Shown here in pieces: positions 2,820-62,705 of a DNA stretch of 64,000 nucleotides. The notes under the pieces are model-generated. The model did no database searches and had not been told where the DNA came from. It saw only the letters and a list, made by a program, of their open reading frames with translations. Source of the DNA: Gari tellinella (Eukaryota; Mollusca; Bivalvia; Cardiida; Psammobiidae); assembly GCA_922989275.2 (NCBI GenBank), contig OV277864.1, positions 25,555,550-25,619,549 on the forward strand, given 5' to 3'. Both the position numbers and the translations under genes were made by a program. Each line of letters starts with the position of its first letter. Position 1 is the stretch's first letter.

Positions 2820-3264
2820 TACTTTACCCCTTCACTGCCTTATCCCGAGTAAAGCGATGATTTCCAAACTTTTTGGATTCTGATCAGACGCCCGCATCAT
2901 CCGGTGTCTGATCACGATTCAAATTGTTTGACACTCGCAAGTCTTTATGGTATTACTTAACCAATTTGTGCCCACGATCCCATATATGGGACATAGGCAA
3001 ACATTGTAGACTCTGATCAGACGCCGCATTATGCGGCGTCTGATCAGAGTCTACGATGTTTGCTGATAGGATTTTCAATATAAAACAAAATAAAAATGAA
3101 AATTTTGACCAGGCATCCCTTTGATAAAAAATGGACTAATCCAATATAAAACATGGAAGAATCCACTTGGCGCAAAAGGGTTAAGTAAATTCATCTAAAA
3201 TCTAACTTGGAGAAGTAAAAACAATCGACAACTATTAGATGACGTCATGATAGTGAAGGAGTAT
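2820..3264. mobile_element. MITE-B copy split by a MITE-G insertion
   Basis: The left end ACCCCTTCACTGCC is followed by a degenerate cassette I hairpin (2887-2935). The copy is then interrupted by a TTAA-flanked MITE-G and resumes at 3181 with the usual right half (CAAACGACAATT-like run, GTCATGATAGTGAAGG). The break falls exactly at a duplicated TTAA. Confidence 0.6.
2961..3180. mobile_element. MITE-G copy, TTAA-flanked, inside MITE-B
   Basis: TTAA at 2957-2960 and again at 3181-3184. The left end CCAATTTGTGCCCACG and the right end GGCGCAAAAGGG are imperfect inverted repeats. It carries a cassette I hairpin with a GCATTATGC apex and AGACTC/GAGTCT arms (about 3007-3063). A CCCATATATGGG palindrome sits near the left end. 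Confidence 0.75.
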
Positions 3265-3734
3265 AATAAAAGTAATTTATTACCTTTAATTACCAGCGTA
3301 AATGTTCCTTCATAAACGTATGTTACGGTACGAGTTCAAACTGCAGTCGATAACAAACGAGTACATTAGTGTAACCTTATATTGCCGTCTGCTTATTTTA
3401 TACAGACAAACTTGTGTTGATCGGTCACTAAAAGATGATTAAGAAACAGACTTTAAAGCAGTTTGCTGCCTAATCCATTACAAATGCAAAGTAAAAAGCT
3501 ATCATTGACGCTTTCTACTTTATTTCATTCCTGCATCAAGCTACAATGTGTCTTCAAATACTGATATGGCTTTTCAAAGAGTGATCGCTTAATACAAGTT
3601 CACTGCACATGTACAAAGGGCGTTGGTTTAGAGATCCACAGTAAATAAGACGTAACTCTTTCGTGTTAAAACGGAACTCAACGCAATATAATAATTTGCA
3701 AAATAACAGCTTTTTGAAAAAAGTTTAACCAATT

Positions 3735-3860
3735 CATTGAGTAGCAGACAGTTTGGAGCCTGATCAAACGCCGGGTTACCCGGCGTCTGATCTGGCTCCA
3801 CACTTTTTGCAATATACTTTTAGCATTAACGCATTATTAGGGAAAATAACGTTTTTCTCA
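3735..3860. mobile_element. MITE-A right-half fragment
   Basis: It starts inside the element at GCAGACAGTTTGGAGCC, contains the cassette I hairpin (3751-3801), and runs to a decayed right end (GGGAAAATAACG). The left arm is missing. Confidence 0.6.
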
Positions 3861-3964
3861 CCGGTTCGAATAATGAAACAAGAGGGAGCTTTCCCTATAC
3901 ACGTGGAATCCAGTCTAACTACAAACACCTATGAACATAGTACCATTGTCATAATCACTTGATA
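3818..3964 (+). repeat. segmental duplication unit, copy 1
   Basis: Begins with the right end of a MITE-A remnant and ends in CACTTGATA. About 85-90% similar by eye to 4213-4375; shared landmarks are CTCACCGGTT, GGAATCCAGTCTAACTAC and ATCACTTGATA. A full MITE-A lies exactly between the two copies. Confidence 0.65.
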
Positions 3965-4211
3965 CAGTGGAAAAACCATTATTCTTTCCCGTTTAAACGC
4001 AAACGAAACGCAAACGCAAAACACTAAAATGTAATAAATAACAACTTTTTGACAATTCTGACCATTCTTTGTTAGCTGAGTGGCAAACAGTTTGGAGCCA
4101 GATCAGACGTCGGGTTACCCGGCGTCTGATCTTGCTCCAATCTGTTCGCATTTGAAATAATAGATTTAGCGTAAAGGCATTTATTGGGAAAGAATAACGT
4201 TTTCTCCACTG
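3965..4211 (+). mobile_element. MITE-A, full copy
   Basis: CAGTGGAAAAACCA to TTTTCTCCACTG, flanked by TA. Central hairpin with TCGGGTTACCCGG core. It sits at the junction of the duplicated segments 3818-3964 and 4213-4375. Confidence 0.8.
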
Positions 4212-4212
4212 T

Positions 4213-4375
4213 ACGTTTAGCATTAACACATTAATAGGGAAAATAACGTTTTTCTCACCGGTTTGAATAATGAAACAGGAGGAAGTTTCCCTCTAATACA
4301 CTTGGAATCCAGTCTAACTACAAACTCCTATATGAACATACTAAGTACCATTATTGTAATCACTTGATACCCACT
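4213..4375 (+). repeat. segmental duplication unit, copy 2
   Basis: Second copy of the 3818-3964 unit. It continues past CTTGATA into CCCACTATTG instead of into a MITE, so it shows the flank without the following insertion. Confidence 0.65.
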
Positions 4376-4441
4376 ATTGTCACTGCGTAGTGCAACACGT
4401 ACGTGTCCTCTTATACTGACAACTAGAATCCGAGAGTCATA

Positions 4442-4687
4442 CAGTGGAGAATGTGTTATTCTTTCCCAATAAACGCGTTTACGCTCAAACCATTATTTGC
4501 AGTGCAAACAAATTGGAGCCAGATCAGACGCCGGGTAACCCGGCGTCTGATCAGGCTCCAAACTGTTTGCCACCAAGATAAACATGAAATATCAGAATTG
4601 TCCAAAAGTTTTTCTTTTCTACGTTTTAGCGCTTTGCGTTTGCGTACGTTTGCGTTTAAACGGGAAAGAATAACATATTCTCTTCTG
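4442..4687 (-). mobile_element. MITE-A, full copy
   Basis: Left end CAGTGGAGAATGTG with the CCCAATAAACGCG arm; the right terminus has decayed to CTCTTCTG. The hairpin apex reads GGGTAACCC. Confidence 0.85.
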
Positions 4688-4860
4688 TAGCTGTACGATT
4701 AATTAGTTCGGTTACTAGGGAACCAGTTCCAATGACAATGTATCACTGCTATTCAAAACGCATCATTGATTAGTTATGGGCTTTGCAAAAACAGGTGTTA
4801 TATATATCAAATGGACATACGTATTAGTCTCACTTTTCAATACGATTGGCCGCGATTTTT

Positions 4861-5095
4861 ACAGAGAAGAAGATGATATTATTTTCCAATAACTGCATTT
4901 GTGTTGACCAATTATGTTCTTGCAAACAGTGTTGAGCCAAACCAGACGCACGGGTCACCCGGTGTTTGATCTGGCTCCAAACTGTTTGCCACTCAGATTA
5001 AATTTAAACTTACAAAGGGCTATCATTGTCCATTGTCCAATCTTAATTAAATTGCGTTTGTGTTTAGTATTGTTTAAATGGTGAAGAAAAAACAA
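4861..5095 (-). mobile_element. MITE-A, old degenerate copy
   Basis: Recognisable by GAGAAGAAGATG..ATTTTCCAATAACTGC at the left and a decayed hairpin near 4924-4990 (ACGGGTCACCCGGTG). Both termini are eroded. Confidence 0.55.
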
Positions 5096-5116
5096 CTTCT
5101 CTGTTATACTCCTTAA

Positions 5117-5331
5117 CCCATTTGTGCCCACGATCCCATATATGGGACATAGGCAAATAGTAAAGACTCTGATCAGACGCCATATTATGCGGCGTCTGGT
5201 CAGAGTCTACATTGTTTGCTGATAGGAATTGCAATACAAAATGAAAATGAAAATGTTGTCCAGGTACCCCTTTGATAAAAAATGGACTAATCCAATTTAA
5301 AAAATGGATGAATCCACTGGGCGCAAAGTGG
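5117..5331. mobile_element. MITE-G, full copy
   Basis: TTAA at 5113-5116 and 5332-5335. CCCATTTGTGCCCACG left end; the hairpin at about 5166-5222 has an ATTATGC apex, with the left arm decayed (GCCATATT) while the right arm remains GCGGCGTCTG. Confidence 0.75.
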
Positions 5332-5335
5332 TTAA

Positions 5336-5835
5336 AGAGAATTATAGCGTAATTAAGTCAACCATCTTTCTCCAATACTGAAATAACTATGGGGGAAAGG
5401 GTTAATACAATGTTAAACATATGACTATTTTAAAAAAGCGAAGATGTAGCATGTATATGAAAAGCGAAGCAAAACAATCTAAGTAAAAAACAATATTATC
5501 GATACCGTTTAAATTTTTGTCTTTGAATAAAATATTTCAAAAGATACTCAATAAATTATTTTTTGTGTGTGTATAGTTTTACTTATACGCAAATATTGTT
5601 TAATAAAAAAAAAGACAAATAAATACTGTAACTTCCCAGTGCACGCCTAGTATATTGAAATCAACTTTATCCAGTTGAAGGTGGCCGATTAAGAAGTACA
5701 AATATTGCAGGGGAACCAATATCGTGGAAATAAGATTTGACATAAATTATATCATGGAATGTTTCCTAACTTGAAACCATGTTCCAAAATAGAATATGCA
5801 TTTACGATGGTACTTAAAACGCATTTACGTGTTTA
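5336..5835. other. unassigned AT-rich stretch
   Basis: No repeat family or exon recognised. Long A/T runs, including nine A's near 5606. Confidence 0.4.
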
Positions 5836-6038
5836 ACTGCACGCCGTGATCTGCTTTCAATAATGGTCATCTGCTTTTATTCCTTAATTTCAAATTTGAA
5901 GTAAATTGACAAATGTTATATCATAATGAGTGCCAAACAGTTTTGATCGCGATCAGACGCCGCTTCAACACGCGGCGCCTGATCAGGATCAAAACTGTTT
6001 ACAAATAATCAATGTACTCGGTGTAAGGCATAAATGGG
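5836..6038. mobile_element. MITE-B remnant with variant hairpin
   Basis: Cassette I hairpin at about 5940-6000 with TTTTGATCGCGATCAG left arm and an expanded apex (GCTTCAACACGC). The surrounding TCATCTGCTTTTATT is typical of MITE-B interiors. The ends are eroded. Confidence 0.5.
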
Positions 6039-6051
6039 ACACATAGAAATA

Positions 6052-6250
6052 CAGTCGAACTACGATATCTCGAACTCGCTTAACTCGAACTTTCCGATAT
6101 GTCGACACATGAACTTCATTATTTCATGCTCGGTTATGTCGAACATACCCGTATTTCAAAGTTAAAACGCGGCTTAGCCGCGTTTTAACTTTGAAATACG
6201 TGTACCTGTATGTTCGACTAAACCGAGTTCAAGATATCGAAGTTCGACCA
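6052..6250. mobile_element. MITE-F, near-complete copy
   Basis: CAGTCGAACTACGATATC left end, preceded by TA; the right end GATATCGAAGTTCGAC is its inverted repeat. The centre is an exact palindrome of about 50 bp at about 6151-6200 with apex GCGGCTTAGCCGC. Confidence 0.8.
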
Positions 6251-7811: not shown

Positions 7812-7812
7812 A

Positions 7813-9162: not shown

Positions 9163-9402
9163 CTCTTCCGCTGCCAAATAAATAATGAGAGTTTTACCCC
9201 TTCATCGTTTCATTGCCGTCTGATTCAATTTTGTTGTTTGCAAGATCGTTTCGAAGTAAGATCCAATGTTGTATGATTTAGGGCATATCGATGCGAGTGT
9301 CAAACAGTTTGGATCCTGATCTGACGCCGCGTTACGCGGCGTCAGATCAGGATCAAAATTGTTTGCAAAAGCGCCTTTTGACGTCATTAAGAGTAAAAAG
9401 GG
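9163..9402. mobile_element. MITE-B, full copy
   Basis: TTAA at 9159-9162 and 9403-9406. The hairpin at 9303-9363 has a near-perfect stem GTTTGGATCCTGATCTGACGCC with a GCGTTACGC apex. Inside the left end lies a second inverted MITE-B-like terminus (ACCCCTTCATCGTTTCATTGCC, 9195-9216). Confidence 0.75.
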
Positions 9403-9968: not shown

Positions 9969-10213
9969 AACTCTTTCACTGCCAACGGCGTCAAAAGGCG
10001 ACTTTGCAAACAGATTGGACCCTGACCAGACTCCGTGTAATGCGGCGTCTGATCAGGATCCAAATTGTTTGAAACTCGTATCGAAATTTCTTCAGTCAAA
10101 ACAACTCTAAAGCTGACTTTAAAATTATTGCAGACGGCACTACCAATGCAGACGATATTTTGGCGGTAAGATTGTTAAAGCAGACAATATATCTTGGCAG
10201 TGAAAGAGCTAAA
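9969..10213. mobile_element. MITE-B copy
   Basis: ACTCTTTCACTGCC to GGCAGTGAAAGAGCT; cassette I hairpin at about 10005-10070. The interior CAGACGGCAC..CAGACGATATTTTGG matches the right half of other B copies. Confidence 0.65.
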
Positions 10214-10221
10214 CTGAATTA

Positions 10222-10427
10222 CAGTAAAACCTCGCTATTACGACCACTAAAACGAAGGCTTATTGATTGCATAATAGAGAGGTGGCAGCTTAAAGCAAGA
10301 TGACAGTGAAACAGAAAGCTCCTATAGGAGCTTTCTGTTTCATTGTCACCTTGCTTTAAGCGGTCACCTATTGTAAACACCCTTATAATTAACATAATTT
10401 AGTGGTCGTAATAGTGAGGTTTTACTG
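10222..10427. mobile_element. MITE-E, full copy
   Basis: CAGTAAAACCTCGC to GAGGTTTTACTG, TA-flanked, with TACGACCACTAAA inner ends. Central cassette II palindrome at about 10289-10360, apex GCTCCTATAGGAGC. Confidence 0.9.
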
Positions 10428-10575
10428 TAGTTGCCTTTCTATTGAGTGATGTTGTCCGCTAAATTTATATTGGCCTACTTGTATCCCACTATGTTCATCT
10501 ATAGATTGTTACGACTCATTGTGTCGATGTATACTTCAATTTGTCAAACACTTGATTGGCCGCGCCTTTTATTTA

Positions 10576-10749
10576 CAGTCGAACTTCGATATCTCGAACT
10601 CGGTTATGTCGAACATCCCCGTACAAGCCGCGTTTAAACTTTGAAACACGGGTATGTTCACCTAAGCCGAGCTTGAAATAAGGCAAATTCACGTTTCGAA
10701 ATATCAGATATTTCGAGTTAAGCGAGTTCGAGATATCGAAGTTCGACTG
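10576..10749. mobile_element. MITE-F, full copy
   Basis: CAGTCGAACTTCGATATC to GATATCGAAGTTCGACTG, TA-flanked. The central palindrome is partly lost compared with 6052-6250. Confidence 0.85.
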
Positions 10750-10835
10750 TAATCTTCAACATACTTAGCGTGACTTGTCAGACCGTAGAGTTTAAAATAG
10801 CGTTTGACCAGAATACAATATGACATTCGTGAGTA

Positions 10836-12025: not shown

Positions 12026-12029
12026 TTTA

Positions 12030-12275
12030 CAGTGGAGAATCTTTTATTCTTTCCCGTTTAAACGCAAACGTACGCAAACGCAAAGCGCTAACACGTAGAA
12101 AAGAACAACTTTTGGACAATTCTGATAGTTCATGTTTATCTTGGTGGCAAACAGTTTGGAGCCTGATCAGACGCCGGGTTACCCGGCGTCTGATCTGGCT
12201 CCAAACTGTTTGCACTGCAAATAATAGTTTTAGCGTAAACGCGTTTATTGGGAAAGAATAACACATTCTCCACTG
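12030..12275 (+). mobile_element. MITE-A, young full copy
   Basis: Intact ends and hairpin, inserted immediately beside the foldback element at 11764-12025. TA on both sides. Confidence 0.92.
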
Positions 12276-12389
12276 TACCCTAGGTGCTAGCAATCTTTGA
12301 GTAGTATTATTATATGAATATGCTGGCGTGTTTGCTCTTTCGGTAGTAGTAGGAACGGCTTTATGCCTTTGGAAAATGTAAAATTTTGT

Positions 12390-19905: not shown

Positions 19906-20097
19906 AATTCTAATTTTGTATAGAATTCGCCTTTTAAAATCCCGAGAGGATAATTAATTAGAATATTCGCAGATATGGTGGCTTATCAGTGACATCAAAT
20001 TGTAATCAGAAAATTACCACATGCATCTACCTTTAAACCCCCGTTAAACGTCCGTAATATGAGGTGCAAGGTATTTTAAAGATAGGTTCATGCTTAA

Positions 20098-20341
20098 CCC
20101 TTTCCCCCATAGAAGCGCCTTTTAGCGAATATGGTTTATTCCTCCGCTGAAGAAAATAGTTCCATTTTAATCAGTCATGAATATATATTATAGGGAATAG
20201 TTTTCTATTTTCTAGCACATGATAGCTTAAAGCAGGCTGAAAGTAAAGCAGAATGCGCCTTAGGGCGCATTCTGCTTTACTTTCAACCTGCTTTAAGAAG
20301 TCACCTATCTTCAACATAGATATAGACTATCAGGTAAAGGG
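20098..20341 (-). mobile_element. MITE-D, full copy
   Basis: TTAA at 20094-20097 and 20342-20345. Ends CCCTTTCCCCCATAGAAG and CAGGTAAAGGG. Cassette II hairpin at about 20230-20296, apex GCGCCTTAGGGCGC. Confidence 0.88.
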
Positions 20342-20345
20342 TTAA

Positions 20346-21309: not shown

Positions 21310-21672
21310 CAGTATTCCCTCTCTACAACGACACCCAATGGGAGACACAGATTGTATGTGTTGTGCCGAATGAGTTGTTATAGGGCGGGACAATTAAGAA
21401 TTGCCTTACATTTGCAAACAGCTTGAATTCAGATCAGACGCCGCGTAACGCGGCGTCTGATCTGGATTCGAGCTGTTTGTCATTCGTCATTATATTTCTT
21501 CTGTCAAAATGTCCAATATGTAAAATTGAGAAACTGCCAACGACAATTTTAAGCAGACGATATTGTAGCAGTATAAGCGTTAGACATAATTGTCTTGTTT
21601 AGGGAACTGTGGAAAGCGTTGTTGTATGGAGGGAGTCGTTGTTGGGAGGGCCGTTGTAGGAAGGGAGCACGG
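21310..21672. mobile_element. MITE-C, full copy
   Basis: CAGTATTCCCTCTCTACAAC to GTTGTAGGAAGGGAGCACGG, TA-flanked. Perfect cassette I hairpin (21414-21481) with AGCTTGAATTCAG arms and a GCGTAACGC apex. Confidence 0.88.
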
Positions 21673-25650: not shown

Positions 25651-25985
25651 TAAATCTATCTTTTATGTGTGTATTACAATATTTATGAGTCTTTATTGAG
25701 TTGTCGTAACATCGTGGAATTACCAAACACTATCAATTCTATCAGTTCTAATGGCTTTTCATTTATCTGTGACACACTTTTTATCAGGAAATCACACGTG
25801 CAACTTCTATTGTAATCATCTATAAAAAATACATTTATATCAGCCTCAGAGGCTTTAACCCACTTATACCTGCTTTCTTCTTATAATTTCAATGGACTTT
25901 ACCCTTTTGTAATTATTTGACTAGTTCATTACAGTTCATTAGGGTGATCTAAAGGCATGGTAGTGTTAGTCTACATGGTTGGTCT
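25651..25985. other. unassigned stretch
   Basis: A MITE-G-like start (TTTAACCCACTTATACCTGC, about 25855) is present without a matching end. Confidence 0.35.
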
Positions 25986-28110: not shown

Positions 28111-28129
28111 TTATGCAGGGAAGGGTTAA

Positions 28130-28313
28130 CCCTTTGCCTGCTGGTCGCGACTTTATTGATAGTTGCAAACAGTTTAGATCCAGATCTGATCTGGATCCAA
28201 ACTGTTTGAAACTCTTCTTTAGGTTTTTTTACTTTAAAAAATGTATAAATCTAAATTTAACAAACTTTGCAGACGACAATTTCGAAGCAGACGATATCAC
28301 CGCAGGATAAGGG
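28130..28313. mobile_element. MITE-B, complete, hairpin core missing
   Basis: TTAA at 28126-28129 and 28314-28317. CCCTTTGCCTGCTGG to CCGCAGGATAAGGG. The stem is only GTTTAGATCCAGATCTGATCTGGATCC, lacking the AGACGCC core, so the core is dispensable for this copy's survival. Confidence 0.75.
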
Positions 28314-28365
28314 TTAATGAAGTGCTGGGTACCAGTGGTCCGTCTTACGAAATGTCGTACGACCA

Positions 28366-28897: not shown

Positions 28898-29376
28898 AAG
28901 CCTTTCACGCATTTAATTTATTCCTCCACTGTAGATAATAGTTCCTATTTAAACAACCATGATCATGTATTATAAGAAATATTATCTACATGCTACATGT
29001 AGCAGATGGTATATGTATAGCTTAAAACAGTTACATAAAGCAGAATGCATTCTGCTCTACTTTCAATCTGCTTTTAGTGGTTACAGTGGAGAATCTGTTA
29101 TTCTTTCCCAATAAACGCGTTTACGCTAAAACTATTATTTGCAGTGCAAACAGTTTGGAGCCAGATCAGACGCCGGGTAACCCGGCGTCTGATCAGGCTC
29201 CAAACTGTTTGCCACCAAGATAAACATGAATTATCAAAATTGTCAAAAAGTTGTACTTTTCTACATTTTAGTGTTTTGCGTTTGCGTACGTTTGCGTTTA
29301 AACGGGAAAGAATAACAGATTCTCCACTGTATACATGTATGTCTTGCAAACTAGAAATAGGCAATAGGGTAACGGG
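28898..29376 (-). mobile_element. MITE-D host split by MITE-A
   Basis: Left part: CACGCATTTAATTTATTCC, CACTGTAGATAATAGTTCC, reduced hairpin GAATGCATTCTGC. The right part after the insertion, GTCTTGCAAACTAGAAATAG and GGGTAACGGG, is the expected MITE-D end. Confidence 0.75.
29084..29329 (-). mobile_element. MITE-A, young copy inside MITE-D
   Basis: Intact; flanked by TA on both sides, inserted in the stretch that follows the MITE-D hairpin, as at 48518. Confidence 0.92.
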
Positions 29377-31007: not shown

Positions 31008-31011
31008 TTAA

Positions 31012-31255
31012 TCCTTTCCTCCCTGAAACCACAAATGGACAGTTCTAGTTTTCAATTTACTCTAGTCCATTTTTTACATTTTATGGTTGATTTTTACAAT
31101 ATATGTCAAAATTACAAACAGTGTGGATCCTGACCAGAGGGCTCCTATAGGAGCACTCTGATCAGGGTCTACACTGTTTGCATATGACAAGTTAACTTCT
31201 CACAGGTACACTGTTTGCAAATGACGCATATATGCGTGACTAGGGTTCAAAGAGT
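31012..31255 (-). mobile_element. MITE-H, full copy
   Basis: TTAA at 31008-31011 and 31256-31259. Hairpin at about 31117-31182: ACAGTGTGGATCCTGACCAG, apex GGCTCCTATAGGAGC. A direct TACACTGTTTGC follows on the right. Confidence 0.85.
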
Positions 31256-31259
31256 TTAA

Positions 31260-32283: not shown

Positions 32284-32561
32284 TATGTCAGATTAAACAT
32301 CCATGTGATATGAAGGTAGAATGACATTTCTACTATCGTGTAGTATTGCATGTAACCTTTCAATATTGTAATATCATCTCCTCCAAATATTGCCGTTTGC
32401 TTTTAGTTCTCGAAAATAATTATAAAATAGAATGATATCATCTATATTAGATAATTCAGACCGACAAAAATCTTCGAAACGACCGTCTGTTCTGTATCCA
32501 AACTGTTTGCTACTGTAAGCCGTCCCGCAACCAGCTCTCTAAGGACTGAATGAAACATTTA
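32284..32561. other. MITE-B remnants
   Basis: TTGCCGTTTGCTTTTAGTTC and CTGTATCCAAACTGTTTGC (about 32388-32513) are B-type pieces; no ends. Confidence 0.35.
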
Positions 32562-32890
32562 CAGTGTTCCCTCTCTACAACGACACCGAATGGAAGACAC
32601 AGATTGTGTATGTTGTTCGGAGGGAGTCGTCATATGGAGGAAAAATTAAGACTTGGCTTACTTTTGCAAACAGCTTGGATCCAGATCAGATCTGGATTCA
32701 AGCTGTTTGCTACTCGTAAAAAACATTCTGTCAAAATGTATAAAACGTGACATTGAGAATAACAGCATAAAAAGACAATATTGTAGCCGTAAAAAGGTTG
32801 GACATGCTTGTCTTGTTTGGGGAACAGCGACAAACATTGTTGTGAAGAAGGAATCGTTGTGGAGAGGTCCGTTATAGAGAGTGAGCACTG
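32562..32890. mobile_element. MITE-C, full copy, reduced hairpin
   Basis: CAGTGTTCCCTCTCTACAAC to GTTATAGAGAGTGAGCACTG, TA-flanked. Stem shortened to AGCTTGGATCCAGATCAGATCTGGATTC. Confidence 0.85.
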
Positions 32891-33055
32891 TACATACGAA
32901 TTTGTGTTTAGTACATCTGCACTGGCGTAAATGTGCCGTTTGGTATCTGACATTAAGATACACAGTGTCACTTGTTACGCCTACTATTTTGACACTAGCA
33001 TACCGTTTGGCATTTGACATTTCCATACACATTGCCGATTATACGCCTACTGGTA

Positions 33056-38243: not shown

Positions 38244-38485
38244 GTTATCCCTTTACCTGATTTCTAATATTGAAGATAGGCGACTTCTTAAAGCATGTTG
38301 AAAGTAAAGCAGAATGCGCCTAAAGGCGCATTCTGCTTTACTTTCAGCCTGATTTAAGCTATCATGTGCTAGAATATAGAAAATATTCCCTATAATATAT
38401 CTTCAAAACTGATTAAATTGGAACTATTTTCTTCAGCGGATGAATAAATTAAACGCGCTAAAAGGCGCTTCTATTGGGAAAAGGG
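38244..38485 (+). mobile_element. MITE-D, full copy
   Basis: TATCCCTTTACCTG to TTGGGAAAAGGG, TTAA at 38486-38489. Cassette II hairpin 38290-38356 with exact apex GCGCCTAAAGGCGC. Confidence 0.85.
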
Positions 38486-39841: not shown

Positions 39842-40083
39842 CTTTACCCCATAGCCTATTTCTAGTTTTGAAGATAGTTGGCTACTTAAAGCAGGTGGAA
39901 AGTAAAGCAGAATGTGCCTTAAGGCACATTCTGCTTTACTTTCAGCCTGCTTTAAGCTCTAATCTGCAAGGAAACTGAAAATAATTCTAATGAATTATAT
40001 TCATGACTGTATAATTTGGAACTATTTTTTTCAGCGGAGGAATAAATAAAATACGCTAAAAGTCGTTTCTATTGGGGAAAGGG
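39842..40083 (+). mobile_element. MITE-D, full copy
   Basis: CTTTACCCCATAGCC to GGGGAAAGGG, TTAA at 40084-40087. Hairpin 39889-39956 with apex GTGCCTTAAGGCAC, where a compensated GC to GT/AC change distinguishes it from other copies. Confidence 0.85.
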
Positions 40084-41378: not shown

Positions 41379-41625
41379 CAGTAGAGAAAATGGTATCTCT
41401 TCCCGTTTAAAAGCAGATGAATCGCAAATGCATTGCAATTATTATGTAGGAACAGACAACTGATTGACAATTCTGCCTATTTATATCAATTTTAGTGGCA
41501 AACAGTTTGGAGTCCGATCAGGCGCCGGGTAACCCGGCGCCCGATCGGACTCCAAACTGTTGCATTGGAAAAAATAGATGTAGGGTAAACGCGTTTATTG
41601 GGAAAGAATAACGCCTTCTCCACTG
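41379..41625 (+). mobile_element. MITE-A with compensated hairpin changes
   Basis: CAGTAGAGAAAATGG to GCCTTCTCCACTG. Hairpin 41505-41559 has GTCCGATCAGGCGCC on the left and GGCGCCCGATCGGAC on the right; several substitutions relative to the family are matched on both arms. Confidence 0.88.
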
Positions 41626-42632: not shown

Positions 42633-42870
42633 CCCATTTGTGCCCACGATCCAATATATGGGACATAGGAACACAGTGAAGACTCTGATCAGACGCCATT
42701 TTTTATCAAAGGGGATGTCTGGTCAAATTTTTCATTTTGATCTTGTTTTATATTGAAATTCCTATCAGCAAACAGTGTAGACTCTGATCAGACGCCGCAT
42801 AATGCGGCGTCTGCTCAGAGTCTACACTGTTTGCCTATGTCCCATATATTGAATCGTGGGCACAAATGGG
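42633..42870. mobile_element. MITE-G, rearranged symmetric copy
   Basis: TTAA at 42629-42632 and 42871-42874. Both ends are the same terminus in inverted form (CCCATTTGTGCCCACGATCC and its complement, with the CATATATTG box). The left half breaks off inside the hairpin and joins the opposite interior (TTTTTTATCAAAGGGGATG). Hairpin on the right intact with a GCATAATGC apex. Confidence 0.8.
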
Positions 42871-44304: not shown

Positions 44305-44619
44305 AATTGTGTGTGTTGTTCGGAAGGAGTTGATATAGGGAGGGGAATTGGCTTACATTTGCAAACAGCTTGAATTCAGACCAGACGCCGCATAACGTGG
44401 CGTCTGATCTGGATTCAAGCTGTTTGTCACTCATCATTATGTTTCTTCTGTTAAAATGTCCAATATATCACTTTGAGAAAAACACCAGACGACAATTTTA
44501 AGCAGGCGATATTACAGCCGAAAAGGTTTGACAAAATTATCTTGTTTGGGGAACAGCGGCAAGCATCGTTGTGAGGAGGGAATCGTTGTTCAGAGAGTCA
44601 TTGCATGGAAGGAGCACTG
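44305..44619. mobile_element. MITE-C, 5'-truncated
   Basis: GTGTGTGTTGTTCGGAAGGAG start; near-perfect hairpin 44361-44428 (GCATAACGTGG apex); GGAAGGAGCACTG end flanked by TCG rather than TA. Confidence 0.75.
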
Positions 44620-49939: not shown

Positions 49940-50278
49940 TTAAGCATTTAATTTCGGCTTAAAACATTTTATGAAATAGTTTTCTTTGGCTAACCTAGCA
50001 GATGCCTTTGTTGAACGTACTTTGTAGAAAGGGAACATTTGAAATTTAGGGTCATAATTGGAACATTGGTCTAAATGTGCACTGAGCGGAATTTGGCGTG
50101 TTGATGGATCTCGAATTTGCTGCGCATGGATTGTTCTTCTTGTTCTGAGTTTGTCACCCGTTTGGCCTATATAATATTCTTTGCATCCATTACAGGTAAT
50201 AACATAAATACAATTTTTAACATCACAAGACATATTTGCGTTTACTTTGAATTTTTTTCCATTAAAATTATGAGTCAC
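49940..50278 (-). CDS. GIY-YIG endonuclease domain of Penelope polyprotein
   Basis: 112 codons open from a GTG, with no ATG, so it is a frame-shifted continuation of the RT protein, not a separate gene. Visible motifs: NCIYVITC (residues 22-29, GIY part), YYIGQT (35-40, YIG part), an arginine-rich helix LRTRRTIH (44-51), the KEN glutamate near residue 99 and a terminal N. Paired cysteines (C18, C23, C29, C32) fit the Zn-binding additions of some Penelope endonucleases. The domain would nick the target DNA to prime reverse transcription. Confidence 0.92.
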   Translation of the reverse strand: MTHNFNGKKFKVNANMSCDVKNCIYVITCNGCKEYYIGQTGDKLRTRRTIHAQQIRDPSTRQIPLSAHLDQCSNYDPKFQMFPFYKVRSTKASARLAKENYFIKCFKPKLNA

Positions 50279-52160
50279 TTTCTGTAATATGTTGACAGAG
50301 GCTACAGTTTGACCTTCCGCACTTTACAACTTTATTTGTTTGGTTAATGGAGAATTTGGCTTTAGTTAATAATTTCTTCAAATTTGGAAGTTGTCTTTTA
50401 CTTTTGATCAGTTTGGTTTCGTCAAGAATTTTGCTCATTTTAGAGTCTGATTTAAGGATATGTAGACTGTTAGAAAAAATCCCAAACATTTCAGGATTTT
50501 TAAAATTGTTCGTAGATACGTATGGTGTTTTATCAGTTTTTTGTTTTATTTGTACTTTGCATAGTTGTTCTCTTGGGATTTTCTTAGCTTCGTTGATTCC
50601 AGCGTCTATAATGCGCTTTGGGTATTCTCTTGTTTTTAAATGTAGGGAAAGTTCAAATAATCTTTTATCTCTTGTGTTTTGATCTGAAACAATGGTACAA
50701 ATTCGTCTTGCTAGATTATATGGTATGCTATTTATTGTGTGGTTGGGGTGACATGACTTGTAGTTAAGATATTGTTTGGAGTCAGTTGGTTTGAAGTATA
50801 TATCGGTATTTAAGGTTGTGTCAATCTTTATTATCAAAATGTCTAAGAAAGGGAGATATTTTTCGTCACATTCAATGGTAAATTGTATATCTGGATGTAA
50901 ATTATTTAGAATACAGTGGAATTTTTCGAGGTCGCTTTTAGACATGTCCCAAAACATAAAACAATCATCAAGGTAACGTTTCCAAAGTCTTTTAAGGTTG
51001 TTTCCAAAGTCTTCTCCAAATTCTCTTTCCGATATTTCGTACAATGATTCTTCGAGGTAAGCCAAAACAAGTGTAGCATAGGTAGGTGCGAATTTAGTAC
51101 CCATAGCTGTTCCTTTTACTTGAGTATAAAATTTACCATTGAATGTGAATATGTTGTTTTCAAGGATTACTTTTATGGCTTCTATAATGAAATTAGTGTT
51201 AAATCGCCTATGAATTAGTTGGGGATATTTGTTTAACCAGTAATTAATTGCTTCTATACCTAAACTGTGCGAAATATTTGAATACAGATTGGTGACGTCA
51301 AAGGACACCAAAAGAGTGTTTGATTTTACGTTTTTTGGAATATAATTCAAAAAGTCTATGTCATCTCTAATGTAGCTTTGAATCTTTTCAATGAATGGCT
51401 TCAAGAGTATGTCTACTAAATTACTTAAACGGTGGGTTTCGCAAACTGGACCTGCTACGATTGGTCTAAATGTTAAGTCGTCCGGTTCCAGAATTTCTAC
51501 GTATGTGCCGGACGTTTGTAGGCATTTTTCTTTGATAGATTTACTTTTGTGTATTTTCGGCAGGCCGTAAAATGTACTTGTTTTACATTCAAAATCTAAG
51601 AGGTAATTCAATTCATTTTTAGTTATATCCTTTGTTAGTTCAATCACTTTTTGAATTTTCTTAAACGTCTGTTTACAGCTGTCATCATTGGTTTCATTGT
51701 AAAATGAATCGTCTTGTAACATGGATAATATTTTTGTTTTGTAATAATCTCTGTTCATTATAACTATTCCCCCACCTTTATCTGCTTCTTTTATTATTAT
51801 GTTATCATCTTCTTGTAATGACTTTATAGCTTGTCGTTCTGAAAGTGAGACGTTATGTTTCTTTTTGTTATCCGGCTTGTTTGGTATTTTCTTTGTTACA
51901 TTGATAAAGTCATCTAGAGCTTGGTTTCGACCCTTTGGTGGTTGAAAGTCACTTTTATTTCTTACTAATGACTCGTCTTGTTTTATATTACTATCATGAA
52001 AAAATTCCTTGAGTTTTAATTTCCTATGAAACTCTGAAATATCTGCATCAAGCTCCTGTTTATTTGACTTTTCTGAAGTTGGAGTGTATTTAAAGCCTTT
52101 TAAAAGTAGTTTAAGTTCACTGTCGGATAATTTTCGATTAGAAAGATTAAATATTTTCAC
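50268..52160 (-). CDS. Penelope-type reverse transcriptase
   Basis: 630 codons without a stop. Motifs in order: EADKGGG (125-131, DKG box), GLPKIHK (199-205), FRPIVAGP (231-238), motif A LVSFDVTNLYS (catalytic D288), motif B KGTAMGTKFAPT (349-360), motif C RYLDDC (catalytic D398 and D399), then thumb-like TDSKQYLNYKSCHPNH and the linker zinc-knuckle CGRSNCSLCQH (614-624). The fold is telomerase-like in this family. The first codon shown is GTG; the frame is open about 30 codons upstream to a TGA, so the true start lies in the broken N-terminal section. The stop at 50268 overlaps the endonuclease frame by 11 bases; moving by one base restores continuity. Confidence 0.96.
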   Translation of the reverse strand: MKIFNLSNRKLSDSELKLLLKGFKYTPTSEKSNKQELDADISEFHRKLKLKEFFHDSNIKQDESLVRNKSDFQPPKGRNQALDDFINVTKKIPNKPDNKKKHNVSLSERQAIKSLQEDDNIIIKEADKGGGIVIMNRDYYKTKILSMLQDDSFYNETNDDSCKQTFKKIQKVIELTKDITKNELNYLLDFECKTSTFYGLPKIHKSKSIKEKCLQTSGTYVEILEPDDLTFRPIVAGPVCETHRLSNLVDILLKPFIEKIQSYIRDDIDFLNYIPKNVKSNTLLVSFDVTNLYSNISHSLGIEAINYWLNKYPQLIHRRFNTNFIIEAIKVILENNIFTFNGKFYTQVKGTAMGTKFAPTYATLVLAYLEESLYEISEREFGEDFGNNLKRLWKRYLDDCFMFWDMSKSDLEKFHCILNNLHPDIQFTIECDEKYLPFLDILIIKIDTTLNTDIYFKPTDSKQYLNYKSCHPNHTINSIPYNLARRICTIVSDQNTRDKRLFELSLHLKTREYPKRIIDAGINEAKKIPREQLCKVQIKQKTDKTPYVSTNNFKNPEMFGIFSNSLHILKSDSKMSKILDETKLIKSKRQLPNLKKLLTKAKFSINQTNKVVKCGRSNCSLCQHITESDS

Positions 52161-52245
52161 TTGTTCTGAGTTGGCATCTGCTAGGTTAATGTTTCGATTC
52201 TCGTGCTTTCGTCTAAAAAATCGTCCTGTTCTTCATTGACATGCG

Positions 52246-53340
52246 TCAGGTGTAAAAATCGTTGCGAGTTTCTGTGTTTGGATTTCTTGCGTTTCTGCCT
52301 GTTATGCTCGTCCTTCTATTTGCTCTGTCTTCTGGGTAACGTCCTGCTTGTTGATTTCGGTGTCCGGTCGGTGCACTGTTATTTTTCCGGATTGTTGGAT
52401 TTGTTCCTTGACTGGTCTGATTGGTGCTGGGACTCTCGACCTCCTGTAGGTCTTTGAAGAATGGATTTTTGTTCTCATGATTTTTAATAAAATCAACTTC
52501 ATATTGTTTTAACCAACGCTTATTCTTTTGCCATCTTCTCGTTGAGATGGTCTCGTTGTGTGATATTTGGTTCTCCCACCACTCTAGAAGAATGCTCTTC
52601 ACGCTACCTCTGGCCTTTTCGTCTATGATCCTTGTTATGTCTGTATCTATTTGCTTACATCTTTCGTAGTGTTGTTCTGATCTTAGTTTCTGAAGCTCTA
52701 TTTCCATCTCAAAGTCGTTTTGAACTGCTTTTTCTCTCAGTTGTCGCTGGTTTTCTGGTTCATTTTTCCAGGATTTCTTCTGTACATGCTTTGGCAGGAT
52801 AATATTTTCGCTTTAAAGCCAATTCGAATACATTTCATGAAGTCCCTCGCTTCTCGTCTTGCTCCAGAATGCGTCGGTTCGTTTTTGTAGTTTAAAATTC
52901 CAAACATTTGCTATATCAGATTTAATTTTCAGGGCTTCGTTTTCCACGTGGGGTTGATGCCGCAAAGTGTTATTTTGTGCAGAGCTTGAATTGTCAGTAT
53001 TGTTTGGAATATTATTCGAAATGGTTGTCAGAACTTGTGTCATTTCCGAGAGAACAGGATTTATTGAAGTGTTTTGGTCGTTTTGTGATTCCGGCTGCTT
53101 TTGCTTGATAACATCAGTAAGTGTTTCAATGGCGTTAAGAATTTGAGTTAATTTTCTACTTATCTCATTTAGTTTTCTTCCTTCCCTTGCTTCTAGTCCC
53201 GTCGATGATGTTTCTCCGATTTCCTGGCTTGCTTGTCCAACTTCTGCATCTTTGGTTTTCTTTGGTGGCATTATCCGTCTCTTGTACCGGTTAAATATAA
53301 ACGGAAATGCAAAGGTCCGACAAAAGTCGGTCCGGTACAA
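52246..53340 (-). pseudogene. broken N-terminal region of the Penelope protein
   Basis: 53340-52816 encodes 175 residues, then TAA (52815-52813), and the same frame continues as SENIILPKHVQKKSW into a 153-residue stretch ending at 52246. The two pieces are therefore one reading frame with a nonsense codon. A third frame (HVNEEQDDFLDEST) is open across 52246-52190, so at least one further frame change separates it from the RT. The likely natural start is ATG at 53271 (MPPKKTKDAEVG), because upstream residues overlap the inverted terminal arm. The N-terminal piece has a predicted coiled-coil (LNEISRKLTQILNAIETL) and a Q/N-rich linker; the second is basic and helical. No known domain recognised. 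Confidence 0.8.
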
Positions 53341-53454
53341 GTTTAGATATATATCGAATTAAAAAAAGAGAAAAATTATGCCTTTGTTTAAACAATATTT
53401 AATAAAAACATTACGCTCCTCTACTAAACTAGTTTCGCCTTTCGGCTCCTCAGT
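53295..53454 (+). repeat. inner arm of Penelope 5' inverted repeat
   Basis: About 160 bp, inverted at 53516-53675 with a 61-base loop. Includes the terminal repeat outer part plus ACAAAAGTCGGTCCGG from the leader. Confidence 0.9.
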
Positions 53455-53517
53455 AGTCAATGGAAATAACGTCATTACGTCGTTGGTGACGTCATCGACG
53501 TTGTTTCGTTATTTGAC
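53354..53517 (-). repeat. Penelope terminal repeat, 5' copy
   Basis: 164 bp direct partner of 49737-49900. Confidence 0.92.
53422..53453 (-). ncRNA. hammerhead-ribozyme-like core in 5' terminal repeat
   Basis: Same core as at 49805-49836. The inverted arm contains the complementary copy on the plus strand (about 53517-53548), but there helix III reads CTAGTTTACTAG, so the conserved A-U closing pair and GUA triplet are lost. Confidence 0.6.
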
Positions 53518-53667
53518 TGAGGAGCCGAAAGGCGAAACTAGTTTACTAGAGGAGCGTAATGTTTTTATTAAATATTGTTTAAACAAAGGCATAATCTTTC
53601 TCTTTTTTTAATTCGATATATATCTAAACTTGTACCGGACCGACTTTTGTCGGACCTTTGCATTTCC

Positions 53668-53675
<8 letters not shown>
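53516..53675 (-). repeat. outer arm of Penelope 5' inverted repeat
   Basis: Inverted partial copy of terminal repeat and leader; ends in CCGTTTATAT running into a TA microsatellite (53671-53699). Confidence 0.9.
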
Positions 53676-53701
<26 letters not shown>

Positions 53702-53789
53702 AGACAGGAATGAGTTAAAGTGCATTTCATTTCCGTGAGGGAAAGATTTATAGAGACTGACAATTGGATCATGCATCTTTAACATCGTA

Positions 53790-54035
53790 CAGTGGAGAAT
53801 CTGTTATTCTTTCCCGTTTAAACGCAAACGTACGCAAACGAAAAACACTAAAACATAGAAAAGTACAATATTTGGACAATTCTGATAATTCATGTTTATC
53901 TTGGTGGCAAACAGTTTGGAGCCTGATCAGACGCCGGGTTACCCGGCGTCTGATCTGGCTCCAAACTGTTTGCACTGCAAATAATAGTTTTAGCGTAAAC
54001 GCGTTTATTGGGAAAGAATAACAGATTCTCCACTG
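53790..54035 (+). mobile_element. MITE-A, young full copy
   Basis: CAGTGGAGAATCTG to CAGATTCTCCACTG, TA-flanked. Interior shared with 29084 (AAACACTAAAAC). Confidence 0.92.
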
Positions 54036-54058
54036 TACACACATGTTGCAATAAACTA

Positions 54059-58464: not shown

Positions 58465-58710
58465 TTAATGTTTCTTTTTTCAAAACATTATTGCAAAGAG
58501 GCAAATGATTTTCACAATAACAATGTTCGTAAAGGACAGGTACATTTGTACACGAGTCGCTAAATCAGACAGAGTGGGTGAAGAACGAAACATCTGGTAC
58601 ACTCTTGTTAAACTCGTCCGCACGTTCGGACAGGTTAATCACTATTAACAGTTGAGAACACGCTATTTCCCGTTTAAAAGCAACGAAACACACACGCATC
58701 GCAAAATCAT

Positions 58711-60711
58711 GGAATGTCGGTCCGGACATGCCAATTACTAAATGCTAATTGCTTCTTTGCTTTATCTTTATCTTTATTACTTTATTACACTCAGTTCATG
58801 ATTTTACATGAAAACATGAGGAACAGACAATATACATAGACAAAACATGAGGAACATAACAAAATGTACATAGACAATACATACATATTCACAAACAAAT
58901 AATTCAGTACATTATCAGTTTCTGTAAATGATTCCGGATTTGTATATGATTTTTGGGAGTTACCAAATGGCAGTTGCTTTTTATTTGCTAATTGCTAATT
59001 TGCCAGTTTCTAAATACTAATATATGTAACTTGCTAGTTCTATAATACTAAGTTGCCAATTGCCAATATGCCAGTTGCTACATGCTTACTGCCATTTGTC
59101 GTAAATCTAATGCCGTGCGGACATGCAAATTGCTAAAAGATAATTGCTTCTTTGCCAGTTGCTAAATACCAATTGCTTATTTGCTAATTGCTAATTTGCC
59201 AGTTGCTAAATACTAATAAATGTCTATTGCTAGTTATATAATGCTAATTTTCCCATTGCCAATATGTTATTTGCCAGTTGCTAAATGCTAATTTCCATTT
59301 GTCGTAAATCTAATTTCTTTTCACTGAAGAGTGTTGGGACCACAAAGTATGGAAGGCCGGTGCGCAATGCTAAATTCTAACTGCGAATTGCTATATGCGA
59401 AATGCTAAATACGAATTGAAAAATGCTATTTAAATTCAAAACTCAATAAGGTGGTGCAAAATGCTATTTGTAAAACGCCAAATGCTAAATGCTGATTGCA
59501 AAATGCCATTTGCGAATTGCAAAAATGCTAAATGCGAATTGCAAAAATGCTATTCGCAAATTCCTAAATGCCAAAATACGAATTGCTGTACTTAGGCCAA
59601 ACAAAAAACCTATGTTTCCGGTAACTCGACCGACCCTAATTAATCCCTCCGACCCTAAACTATTTTTTTTATTTTTCGAAAATGCCGAATGTCGATCATT
59701 TTTGCGGCGCAATTGACAGTCGTTTTTGAGGAACATGTAATAGAAGATATTCTTCAGTTAATTATTTTAAAAGCTGCTTTACAGTCGTTTAAGTGTTTTA
59801 AAAATTGATTTTTAAATAAGATTAGCAAATATCTAAGAGAAATTTGATCTAAATCTGTCATAAAGTACCTTCCTTGCAGGTATGATCTGCTAGTTAATTA
59901 CCATTGACATATTCAACATGCAGTCGACACATTTTATTGACATATTTGGCAAGCATATTATACATTTCAAAATATTATTGATTCCACCTATTATATATAA
60001 GTCGCTACTTTGCCGGTCGGTATACCAATATTGGTTAACAATCATACCAGTTTCAATTTTAAGGTAATTTTGGAAATGGGACCTATCAATTGAATTAACA
60101 ATTTGAATTGATATTTGTAAGGTATTTTATGTTTGGCCCAGGGCTCGGCAAAATAAAATACCTTCATATGTTTTCATACATTAATATGATTATATAAAAT
60201 ACTCCATCAGAAAAGATAAATATATCATTATATGATTGTGTTAAAAAAGATTCTCCGACCGCCAGTCCCTAAATAGTTTGCATGTAATAGGAAACACGGA
60301 TATTCTTTTATTTGGCCTAAATGCGATTTGCTAAAGGCTAAAAGCGATTTGCTGAATGTCAAATGATTGAGAAAACCGCAATTTGAAGAAACCGCCAAGG
60401 TATTTGGTATTCAGTGCAAATAGCATTACGCATTTGGCAAATAACAATTCGCATTTAGCTAATAGCATTTAATATTTCACAAAAAGCATTTCGCATTTAG
60501 CATTTGGCATTTTACAACTAGTAATTAGCATGGCGCACTATGAACTTTTGGCAAATGGCTATTTGGCAAATAGCTATACGCATGTCTGGACCGGCATTCC
60601 TTAGCATTTAGCAACTGGCACATTAGCAAATAGCAAACAAGCAATTGTCATTTAGCAACTGGCAAAGAAGCAATTATCATTTAGCAATTGGCATGTCCGG
60701 ACAGGCATTCC
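58711..60711. mobile_element. element N: 2.0 kb with TAATTGC arrays
   Basis: Inverted ends GGAATGTCGGTCCGGACATG and CATGTCCGGACAGGCATTCC. Left third is an array of short words such as GCTAATTGC, TTTGCCAGTTGC and AAATGCTAA; right part has the same words inverted (AGCAATTGGC, TTTAGCATTTGGC). Flanks CAAAAT on both sides suggest a degenerate 8 bp duplication, which would fit hAT; not certain. No transposase. Confidence 0.82.
59592..60320. mobile_element. element O: 0.73 kb inside element N
   Basis: Inverted ends TTAGGCCAAACAAAA and TTTTATTTGGCCTAA with CTATGTTTCC and GGAAACACGG just inside. Element N array words resume on both sides. Interior AT-rich, no frame of note. Confidence 0.72.
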
Positions 60712-60948
60712 ATACAAAATACATAGAAAATTATAAATTGTTGACAATTCTGATTTTTTTTTAATTTGAGTGGCAAATATTTGTGAGCCTGATCAAACGA
60801 TGGGTTTCCCGGTGTCTGCCCTTGCTCGAAACTGTTTGCAATGTAAAGCGTAAACGGGTTTATTGAGAAAGAGTAACGTCTTCTCCACTGTACCTTATAG
60901 CGCAAGAGTAGGGTCCGAGGCTGTAAAAAACTGATAAGTTCGACTTAA

Positions 60949-61392
60949 CCATTTCCTTCCTGAAACTTCAAACAATCAATTCCAGTGTCCAATTTAGTCT
61001 AGTCCATTTTAGGGCTATTTATACTTGATTTTATCTACAATGTTTTGCAATATGACAAACAATGTGGTCACTGGTCAGAGGGCTCCTCTTATCTGGGGTT
61101 TTACTGTTTGCATAGGACAAGTGTACGTTTAACAGGTACACTGTTTTCAAAGAACGCGTATATAGTAAAACCGCTCTATTACGACCACTAAAATAAGGCT
61201 AATGGGTTGTATAAAAGACAGGTGACAGCTTAAAGCAAGGTGACAGTAAAACAGAAAGCTCCTACAGGAGCTTTCTGTTTTACAGTCACTTTGCTTTAAA
61301 TAGTCACCTGTGCTTAATCCCTTATAATTAACCCAATTTGGTGGTCGTAATAGAGGGGTTTTACTGTATATACGTGACCACGAATCAAAGGG
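60949..61392 (-). mobile_element. MITE-H host split by MITE-E
   Basis: TTAA at 60945-60948; CCATTTCCTTCCTGAAAC to CGTGACCACGAATCAAAGGG. The hairpin is shortened (CAGAGGGCTCCTCTTATCTGG). Confidence 0.8.
61163..61366. mobile_element. MITE-E inside MITE-H
   Basis: TAGTAAAACCGCTC to GGGGTTTTACTG, inserted in GCGTATATACGTG of the host, i.e. at TA. Perfect cassette II hairpin, apex GCTCCTACAGGAGC. Confidence 0.9.
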
Positions 61393-61564
61393 TTATCCGA
61401 GTACATTGACTAACCTGTTAGAAAGGAGTCTCTTGTATAAGGTGTTTGTATTACACGACGTCCACTGTCCTAGAATCAGCCCATATGCTATTAGTCCAAT
61501 AATTCCGGCGTTAATAATCCACTATACGTATAGTCTGTATTCAATTATATTTAGCTAGGATGTA

Positions 61565-61810
61565 CAGTGGAGAAAACATTATTCTTTCCCGTTTAAACGC
61601 AAACGAAAAGCAAACGCATTGCAACCAAATGTACAAAATAACAACTTTTTGATGAATTCTACTTTTAATTTTTATTCGAGTAGCAAACAGTTTGGAGCCT
61701 GGTCAGACGCCGGTGACCCGGCGTCTGATCTGCCTCCAAACTGTTTGCAATGGAAATAATAGTTTTAGCGTAAACGCTTTAATAGGGAAAGAATACCGTT
61801 TTCTCCACTG
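61565..61810 (+). mobile_element. MITE-A, full copy
   Basis: CAGTGGAGAAAACA to CGTTTTCTCCACTG. Hairpin apex reduced to CCGGTGACCCGG. Confidence 0.9.
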
Positions 61811-61818
61811 TATAGATA

Positions 61819-62305
61819 CAGTTGAGAAAACGATACTATTCCCCGTTGACATGTAAACGAAACGCAAATACATGTACATAACAATAAAAAGTAGAAAAAG
61901 ACAGGCTTTTGAAAATCCCCACTTCATATTTATTTCGATATCAGTGGCAAACAGTTTGCAACCTGGTCAGTCGCTGTGTACATTACCGGGCATCTTGTCT
62001 GGCTCTTACAGTGGAGAATCTGTTATTCTTTCCCATTTAAACGCAAACGTACGCAAACGCAAAGCACTAAAACGTAGAAAAGAACAACTTTTGGACAATT
62101 CTGATAATTCTTGTTTATCTTGGTGGCAAACAGGTTACCCGGCGTCTGATCTGGCTCCAAACTGTTTGCACTGCAAATAATAGTTTTAGCGTAAACGCGC
62201 TTATTGGGAAAGAATAACAGATTCTCCACTGTAACTGTTTGCAATTGAAATAATGATTTTAGCATAAAATACATTTACTGAGAAAGAATAACATATTCTC
62301 CACTG
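61819..62305 (+). mobile_element. MITE-A host of another MITE-A
   Basis: CAGTTGAGAAAACGATAC at the left, CATATTCTCCACTG at the right. Interrupted inside its right hairpin arm (GTCTGGCTCT, then AACTGTTTGC). Confidence 0.85.
62009..62231 (+). mobile_element. young MITE-A inside old MITE-A
   Basis: TA duplicated on both sides. The left hairpin arm and part of the apex (about 23 bp) are deleted: CAAACAG joins GTTACCCGGCG. Confidence 0.92.
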
Positions 62306-62574
62306 TGTGTATATTTTTGCACCGTAAATATGAACTAATATTCATTACAGAGAATAGTTATTAATGATTTACGTACAATCAAATTTGTACCAAGCAACAG
62401 TTCAGAAAAGGTGCATGGCTTTCCCTAAAAAAGATAGCAACTTAATGCAGAAAAGAACACAAATGAAACATCTCAATCAGGAGCTTTCTGCATTGCTTTC
62501 ATTGACATGTTTCAGTCTGAGTATGATAGTAATTTGCATTTAATAGATATTATATTTTATGCATTCTGAATAAA
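62306..62574. other. unassigned, with cassette II scrap
   Basis: ACTTAATGCAGAAAAGAAC, AGGAGCTTTCTGCATTGC near 62450-62505 look like a decayed hairpin. Confidence 0.4.
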
Positions 62575-62705
62575 ACTGTATTAATGCAATTTAAAACAGT
62601 TTTGACCCTGATCAGGAGCCGAGTTAATCTCCGAAGTACTCGGAGTCTGATCAGAATCCAAAATGTTGCAAATGAAACTCAAGTCGTCATTAATGGTGAT
62701 ATTAT
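62575..62705. mobile_element. MITE-B fragment
   Basis: AACAGTTTTGACCCTGATCAG, GAGTACTTCGG-like expanded apex, CGGAGTCTGATCAGAATCC. Confidence 0.45.

Follow-up and report, generated by a model that had tools for sequence, protein, structure and literature searches.

The described systems closest to the elements considered here are the miniature inverted-repeat transposable elements (MITEs) of the piggyBac and Tc1/mariner types. Why some MITE families greatly outnumber their autonomous partners is an open question. In a stretch of 64,000 nucleotides from the genome of the bivalve Gari tellinella (contig OV277864.1; G000:C9:25555550-25619549, hereafter the window), many short elements of these two types carry one of two palindromes, cassette I and cassette II. 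An initial annotation of the window had described these as hairpins shared by transposon families whose ends and target duplications differ. We propose, at a confidence a little short of even, that cassettes I and II serve miniature DNA transposons as hairpin modules, kept by the lineages that multiply and aiding transposition, most likely as a cruciform hinge. If this is true, a structural module kept by source lineages whatever their transposase would be a direct and testable answer to the question of MITE abundance, and it would show how interior sequence crosses between unrelated transposon superfamilies.

The likeness to piggyBac MITEs lies in the TTAA duplication, the TTAACCC or TTAACTC ends, the short length, and the match of family D and of one B2 locus to the ends of autonomous elements. 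Unlike in those MITEs, the interior is unseen in the partners and the hairpin is common to elements that are not piggyBac. Other elements share with Tc1/mariner MITEs the TA duplication and CAGT/CAGC-type ends, by which they are placed there; they differ in that the hairpin is shared with other types. A conserved module passing between element types is also seen in the highly conserved domains of short interspersed elements (SINEs), and MER6 is described as a Tc1/mariner-type MITE with a piece of V-SINE, the V domain (PMC6887750). Here, in contrast to the SINE domains, the module is a covarying hairpin in DNA transposons of three duplication types within one genome. The elements themselves do not belong with the SINEs: they have inverted ends with TA or TTAA duplications, ARAGORN found no genes in the window, and Rfam at gathering thresholds gave no matches in the window among 4227 families, hence no known RNA family. 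Finally, hairpin maintenance by template switching, as reported in PMC8794818, could explain paired stem changes as found here, but alone it leaves the smaller number of shared variants in the hairpin unexplained.

The genome comprises 1,597,604,326 bp in 80 contigs. It was sampled, with no random draw, as twenty arbitrary 10-kb pieces (200 kb) at 5 and 15 Mb of contigs C1-C10. Clustering the flanks of 223 cassettes from the window, the sample and eight loci fetched by pattern gave the families A, B1, B2, C, F, G and T10, with both flanks unassigned in 62. A scan for ends, in which palindromes were not used (at most 3 of 12 end mismatches for TTAA elements, 3 of 14 for TA elements), added K, M, N and others. 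Cassette I is carried by the TA families A and C and by the TTAA families B1, B2, F, G, K, M and T10. The annotation's element H, at 31008-31259, said to carry a related stem, is the TTAA family named F here, and its stem is indeed a 66-nt variant of cassette I. For cassette II the annotation had D (TTAA) and E (TA); both hold, and to them are added N (TA) and J, which has a third type of duplication, of 6 bp. These duplications are found in the flanks of 7 of 8 J copies; cassette II was flagged in 7 of the 8 and listed separately in the eighth.

The scan for ends yielded 16 bounded TTAA elements of 192-318 bp with no coding seen, among them copies of B1, D, F, G, K, M and T10; TTAA flanks them on either side and their CCC/CTC-type ends match, which classes them as piggyBac MITEs. 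B2 is absent from this set, and its ends are known from flank consensuses and three copies. Another 47 elements, the majority of them family A, are TA-flanked, bounded by CAGT/CAGC-type inverted ends and 178-427 bp long, and class as Tc1/mariner MITEs. A long palindrome is present in 13 of the 16 TTAA and 39 of the 47 TA elements, and in none of either set (0/16, 0/47) after one shuffle each. The representative features in the window are as follows, isolated cassettes being given without strand.

12028..12277, plus strand: family A element (TA; terminal inverted repeat (TIR) CAGTGGAGAA) of 250 bp that carries cassette I; the window has many such elements
12148..12212, no strand: cassette I, 65 nt
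53788..54037, plus strand: family A element with cassette I
29082..29331, minus strand: family A element with cassette I
41499..41563, no strand: cassette I of an A copy; both arms carry coupled changes
21415..21479, no strand: cassette I of family C (TA; TIR of CAGTGCTCCCTCCCTACAACG type), with B-type right arm
44362..44426, no strand: cassette I of family C
32560..32892, plus strand: family C element (TA), hairpin apex lost
10007..10071, no strand: cassette I of a B-type element (TTAA side; ends resembling CTCTTTCACTGCC)
9301..9365, no strand: cassette I of a B-type element
28126..28317, plus strand: TTAA element (CCCTTTGCCTGC), cassette I shortened but still palindromic
2998..3062, no strand: cassette I of family G (TTAA; CCCATTTGTGCCCAC)
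42769..42833, no strand: cassette I of family G
31008..31259, plus strand: family F element (TTAA; the annotation's H)
31115..31180, no strand: cassette I variant of F, 66 nt, apex GGGCTCCTATAGGAGC
20094..20345, minus strand: family D element (TTAA) with cassette II
38287..38358, no strand: cassette II of family D, 72 nt
39885..39956, no strand: cassette II of family D
10220..10429, plus strand: family E element (TA; CAGTAAAACCTC), cassette II, apex GCTCCTATAGGAGC
63032..63267, plus strand: family J element (CAGGGCTGCC; 6-bp duplication CTGTAG), cassette II

A TA element at 10574-10751 of the window has matching CAGTCGAACTTCGA ends, a palindrome score of 10 and no long hairpin, and may serve as a control family. 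At L016:6322-7150 three B1-type cassettes stand at 242-bp steps (6449, 6691, 6933), a MITE turned tandem repeat.

Cassette I is a palindrome of 65 nt, or 66 nt in F and K, and cassette II one of 72 nt. The limits of cassette I are sharp: pairing is high over 28 bases on each side of a 9-base centre, except at one position, and drops immediately beyond the borders. Its predicted fold in A consists of 16 bp, a T.T mismatch, 14 bp and a 3-nt loop. A copy of M, with different letters, is predicted to fold in an identical layout, with a G.G mismatch instead. The DNA fold energies are -38.8 kcal/mol for A and -34.0 kcal/mol for M, and none of 200 shuffles was as good. Some palindromes have been shortened and are still symmetric.

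Pairing was compared across nine families, each with one ungapped representative, a single copy or consensus-like sequence chosen for good condition, so that the set under-represents the damage of single copies. Watson-Crick pairs fill 269 of the 279 stem cells (96%). Changes on both sides are found in 23 of 31 pairs (42 cells), compared to 2-7 pairs and 2-8 cells in six slid controls; positions 1-6 and 28 are invariant and thus uninformative on pairing. Between the cassettes II of D and E there are five paired changes and one other, and between those of D and N seven and three. It is evident from these comparisons that pairing has been maintained by paired changes. The same apex, GCTCCT..AGGAGC, caps cassette I in F/K copies and cassette II in E/N copies of the sample, as the annotation had noticed; its conclusion that apices are exchanged is unproven, because six independent bases are too few. 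The GCAGACGACA/CAGACG motif, a putative binding site, recurs in the arms of B1, B2, C and T10 and also within the hairpin core.

Selection was examined in 50 family A elements of this genome, picked by their ends and length (225-280 bp) with the cassette ignored. Outside CpG, divergence from the consensus averages 0.104 in the arms against 0.039 in the cassette, and the cassette is the lower in 46 of 50 copies. Singletons are equally frequent in the cassette (54/3225) and elsewhere (150/9155; p 0.87), and constraint on each copy or homogenisation was rejected on this ground. When a variant had to be shared by at least 3, 5 and 8 copies, such sites number 9, 1 and 0 of 65 in the cassette and 67, 33 and 26 of 185 elsewhere (p ~5e-4 for each of the three). 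The consensuses of two A groups differ at 21 sites, none of them in the cassette (p 0.003), a value that is not independent because clustering on arm and end sites favours arm differences. For family D, 29 of 39 right-arm matches were kept for coverage. Variants in at least 3 copies stand at 0.051 in hairpin II compared to 0.153 and 0.113 in the arms, singletons at 0.036 in the hairpin and 0.034 and 0.030 in the arms, and the hairpin is the less diverged in 23 of the 29 copies. Since shared variants are several-fold rarer in the hairpin and private ones equal, selection would appear to act on transposing lineages and not on each copy. The data point to copies that decay freely after insertion and multiplying lineages that keep the hairpin, statistically in A and as a trend in D. 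The hairpins seem to have changed less than the remainder of the elements as lineages spawned new ones and probably help the transposons to spread; lineages with the hairpin would then transpose better.

These counts also bear on a reading without function, which we regard as unlikely although it deserves weight: the hairpins would be relics of ancestry and nesting, and template switching would copy arm onto arm and so keep the palindromes perfect. Single copies of A do carry coupled arm changes, 9 against 3.9 expected (p 0.008; 50 copies, stricter null), or 12 against 4.4 in 59 copies under an earlier null that ignored copy age; nesting is real, and template switching is reported to create and maintain hairpins (PMC8794818). 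Arm copying keeps symmetry, yet by our reasoning it should leave the divergence of source lineages unlowered, whereas variants in at least 8 A copies occur at 0 of 65 cassette sites against 26 of 185 others, and the contrast in hairpin II is similar. Template switching may supply the paired changes, but by itself it leaves the unchanged letters unexplained.

HMG-box cofactors and DNA bending take part in transposition. In the mechanism that we favour, a cruciform would be extruded inside a stiff element of ~190-370 bp and serve as a hinge, to which a host protein of HMG type might bind, so that the transposase complex could more easily bring the two ends together. Such help would be independent of the type of transposase, and long autonomous elements would need none. 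Help in joining the ends is suggested because the putative benefit would not vary with the transposase, would go with pairing, and would be found in elements of ~190-370 bp but not in those of 2.6-4.4 kb.

Several observations weigh against this proposal. In A the hairpin letters are kept beyond what pairing requires, and a pure hinge needs no particular letters. The cassette is mostly off-centre: its midpoint falls near 0.5 of the element length in E and N and at ~0.30-0.44 in most families; the annotation was right that A, C, B and G carry cassette I, but a central position does not hold. Template switching could make paired changes in the absence of selection, as the coupled changes in single copies illustrate. 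When CpG sites are left out, the contrast in A is weaker at the lowest threshold (p 0.006, 0.001 and 5e-4 for at least 3, 5 and 8 copies), and doubletons in D are no rarer in the hairpin (0.048) than in the arms (0.041 and 0.030). Fifty copies of A and 29 of D, all of them from one genome, underlie the test of constraint. The hinge itself is a proposal, in which both extrusion and the benefit to transposition are inferred.

The letters kept beyond pairing raise the further possibility, rather improbable in our judgement, that the palindrome is bound by a host protein or transposase and aids movement, escape from silencing or a gain from the local chromatin without any hinge. The outer CAAACA is invariant in 9 of 9 rows of the family comparison and GATCAGA occupies the same place in 6 of 9, and 19-bp palindromes in piggyBac ends are described as bound by the transposase (PMC11707139). 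However, a piggyBac site leaves the TA and 6-bp families unexplained, and hairpin II shows a similar trend at the level of lineages although its letters differ.

How the hairpins came to lie between unrelated ends can be followed in a few loci. Family C (L020:2792-3155) aligns with B1 (L016:6322-6538) over 179 columns, which take in the hairpin and the entire right arm to a decayed GGGT end, ~110 of them beyond the hairpin. In C this stretch, up to the remnant of the TTAA end, is enclosed by TA ends of another type. A TA element, CAGTGAAACCCCTC, at L024:9-375 encloses a complete D, from TTAA to TTAA, and J retains the left arm of D up to GGGGTAAAGG. In A and E no remnant of a captured donor element was found. 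Evidently some hairpins entered new ends by capture or nesting, and the composites C and J then multiplied. A test of arm homology on 66 pairs, with 300 single-base shuffles each, gave z values of 15.9 for BC/B2, 7.9 for BC/T10, 5.2 for B2/T10, 5.0 for B2-left/F, 4.2 for G/F, 4.2 for A/F and 1.9 for A/BC. Because B1, B2, T10 and C have a common arm adjoining the hairpin, part of the sharing is descent of a larger core via nesting or capture.

Among the outcomes that the annotation had named as refuting it was a common ancestor of all families, recognisable by homology along the full length of the elements beyond the hairpin; no such homology was found. Homology of the A arms to the B arm is marginal (z 1.9, p ~0.05 before correction for 66 comparisons), and that of the E arms to the D arms amounts to ~10 bases extending the stem (z 2.8 and p 0.03 in the best of four comparisons). 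Hairpin distance does not track the ends: A (TA) and B1 (TTAA) differ at 2 of 31 arm positions, A and C (both TA) at 5 of 31. These comparisons support the hairpins as homologous modules in elements with unrelated ends. The annotation's term portable is partly supported when it is taken to mean captured, as the columns that C shares with B beyond the hairpin require; mobility of the hairpin by itself is not part of the claim.

That the cassette is itself a mobile insertion hopping into transposons is highly improbable. Unrelated ends do share the hairpin, and its length is tight: among palindromes of at most 70 nt with cassette I feet, 103 of 130 are 65-66 nt, and at least 7 of the others are cassette II. 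Arms move along with the hairpin, though, in B/C and D/J. A scored cassette is present in 53 of the 64 end-paired A elements. The other 11 were aligned to an A reference: 10 retain at least 10 cassette bases, including one in which all 65 persist, though damaged, and the last (L019:5032) has 7 cassette bases left and a gap that extends into the arm. Not one of the 11 is a clean empty site with a gap at the cassette borders, and independent mobility of the cassette was rejected as the main explanation. At L025:2408 and at 25985 of the window one GATC remains of a former two. This pattern of loss would fit hairpin formation in replicating DNA.

A genome search with the piggyBac transposase profile PF13843 gave 86 matches, and a search with DDE_3 gave 1441 candidates, of which 150 were scored. 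Twelve piggyBac loci were inspected; seven have matching TTAA ends, of about five kinds, and the ends of L032/L034 and of L035/L036 are identical. The D copy L027 agrees with the autonomous piggyBac L029 at 20 of 20 bases of one end and at 30 of 37 of the other. L030 shares its CCCTTTCGGCGCC end with the B2 copies L003-L005, at 17 of 17 bases in L005 and 16 of 17 in its tandem neighbours; these copies are adjacent on C1 and probably one repeated locus, and the general B2 end differs. Partners for the other TTAA families were not found among the seven bounded piggyBacs, and a cassette-like hairpin that belongs to the element itself is absent from all seven. An AT-rich palindrome lies in L029 together with the decayed remains of a K-type MITE. 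L031 contains an F-type hairpin that has decayed, and L040, which lacks matching ends, three core 11-mers within 6 kb. Equal scores and no internal stop were observed for piggyBac transposase matches at G000 C3:39235269 and C4:43502536, and at C1:44790294, C4:86013003, C5:70060585 and C17:23677199; because the scores are identical and no stop lies inside, those elements may have moved recently.

The hairpins are abundant throughout. In the window 55 palindromes match the pattern of cassette I (GATCAGACGCC-N9-GGCGTCTGATC, at most 6 of 22 mismatches) with a fixed loop, and 67 with a variable loop length. Genome-wide, the core 11-mer occurs 291,405 + 290,986 times (reversed control 32 + 19) and the full cassette I core 178,681 times as an exact match (reversed control 0). 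The 22 exact cores in the sample scale to ~176,000, in agreement with the exact genome count. Degenerate cassette I was found 129 times in the sample, in 20 of 20 pieces (reversed-sequence null 2), and cassette II 52 times, in 18 of 20 (null 0); simple scaling gives roughly 1.0 million and 0.4 million copies genome-wide. The end of A joined to the hairpin foot is present in 44,956 + 44,868 = 89,824 exact copies and that of B1 in 1,877 + 1,769 = 3,646, with no match in either control. The sharing of hairpins by TA and TTAA families, the annotation's central claim, is thus borne out in the window, the genome counts and the sample. A possible, though clearly less favoured, extension is that the hairpins are selfish sub-elements: enhancers of amplification that would act independently of the transposase, captured across superfamilies, selected for hairpin formation and grown to more than 1 million copies.

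The stems might also be sources of hairpin RNA, as precursors of small interfering RNA (siRNA) or microRNA. As RNA they are nearly perfect over 65-72 nt (predicted -56 and -60 kcal/mol), but the window gave no match to a known RNA family in Rfam, and siRNA directed against the element itself should, on general grounds, hinder it. We regard such a role as very doubtful.

Searches elsewhere were negative: the hairpin patterns had no matches in collections of viral contigs and genome contigs, blastn of an A element against phages and plasmids gave none, and proteins translated through the hairpin had no homologue. A literature search by hairpin letters gave, among the matches listed, only ones judged unrelated from their entries. 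Shared or palindromic MITE interiors are not described among the literature matches listed, a search that left Repbase and most subscription papers outside. In the searchable text of the Mercenaria genome paper no word begins with mite, palindrom or hairpin; that of a bivalve transposon survey mentions MITEs, with palindrom and hairpin absent.

Two other features of the window may be mentioned. At 49940-53358, on the minus strand, lies a Penelope-type retroelement, with RVT_1 just below the cut-off, GIY-YIG above it and a best relative 78% identical. Among the best 120 of 1011 relatives of its reverse transcriptase, few of them named, are Mytilus, Saccostrea and bivalve-symbiont bins (Ca. Thiodiazotropha, Solemya velum gill symbiont); the matches to symbiont bins are read as host contamination. 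On its 5′ side, at 53292-53678, is a 182-nt inverted repeat (94%) with a 23-nt spacer. Short tandem units of the TGCAAAATGCTAATT type occur at 59142-59586 and 60416-60693, near the two arms, at 59115-59222 and 60595-60702, of a 108-nt inverted repeat.

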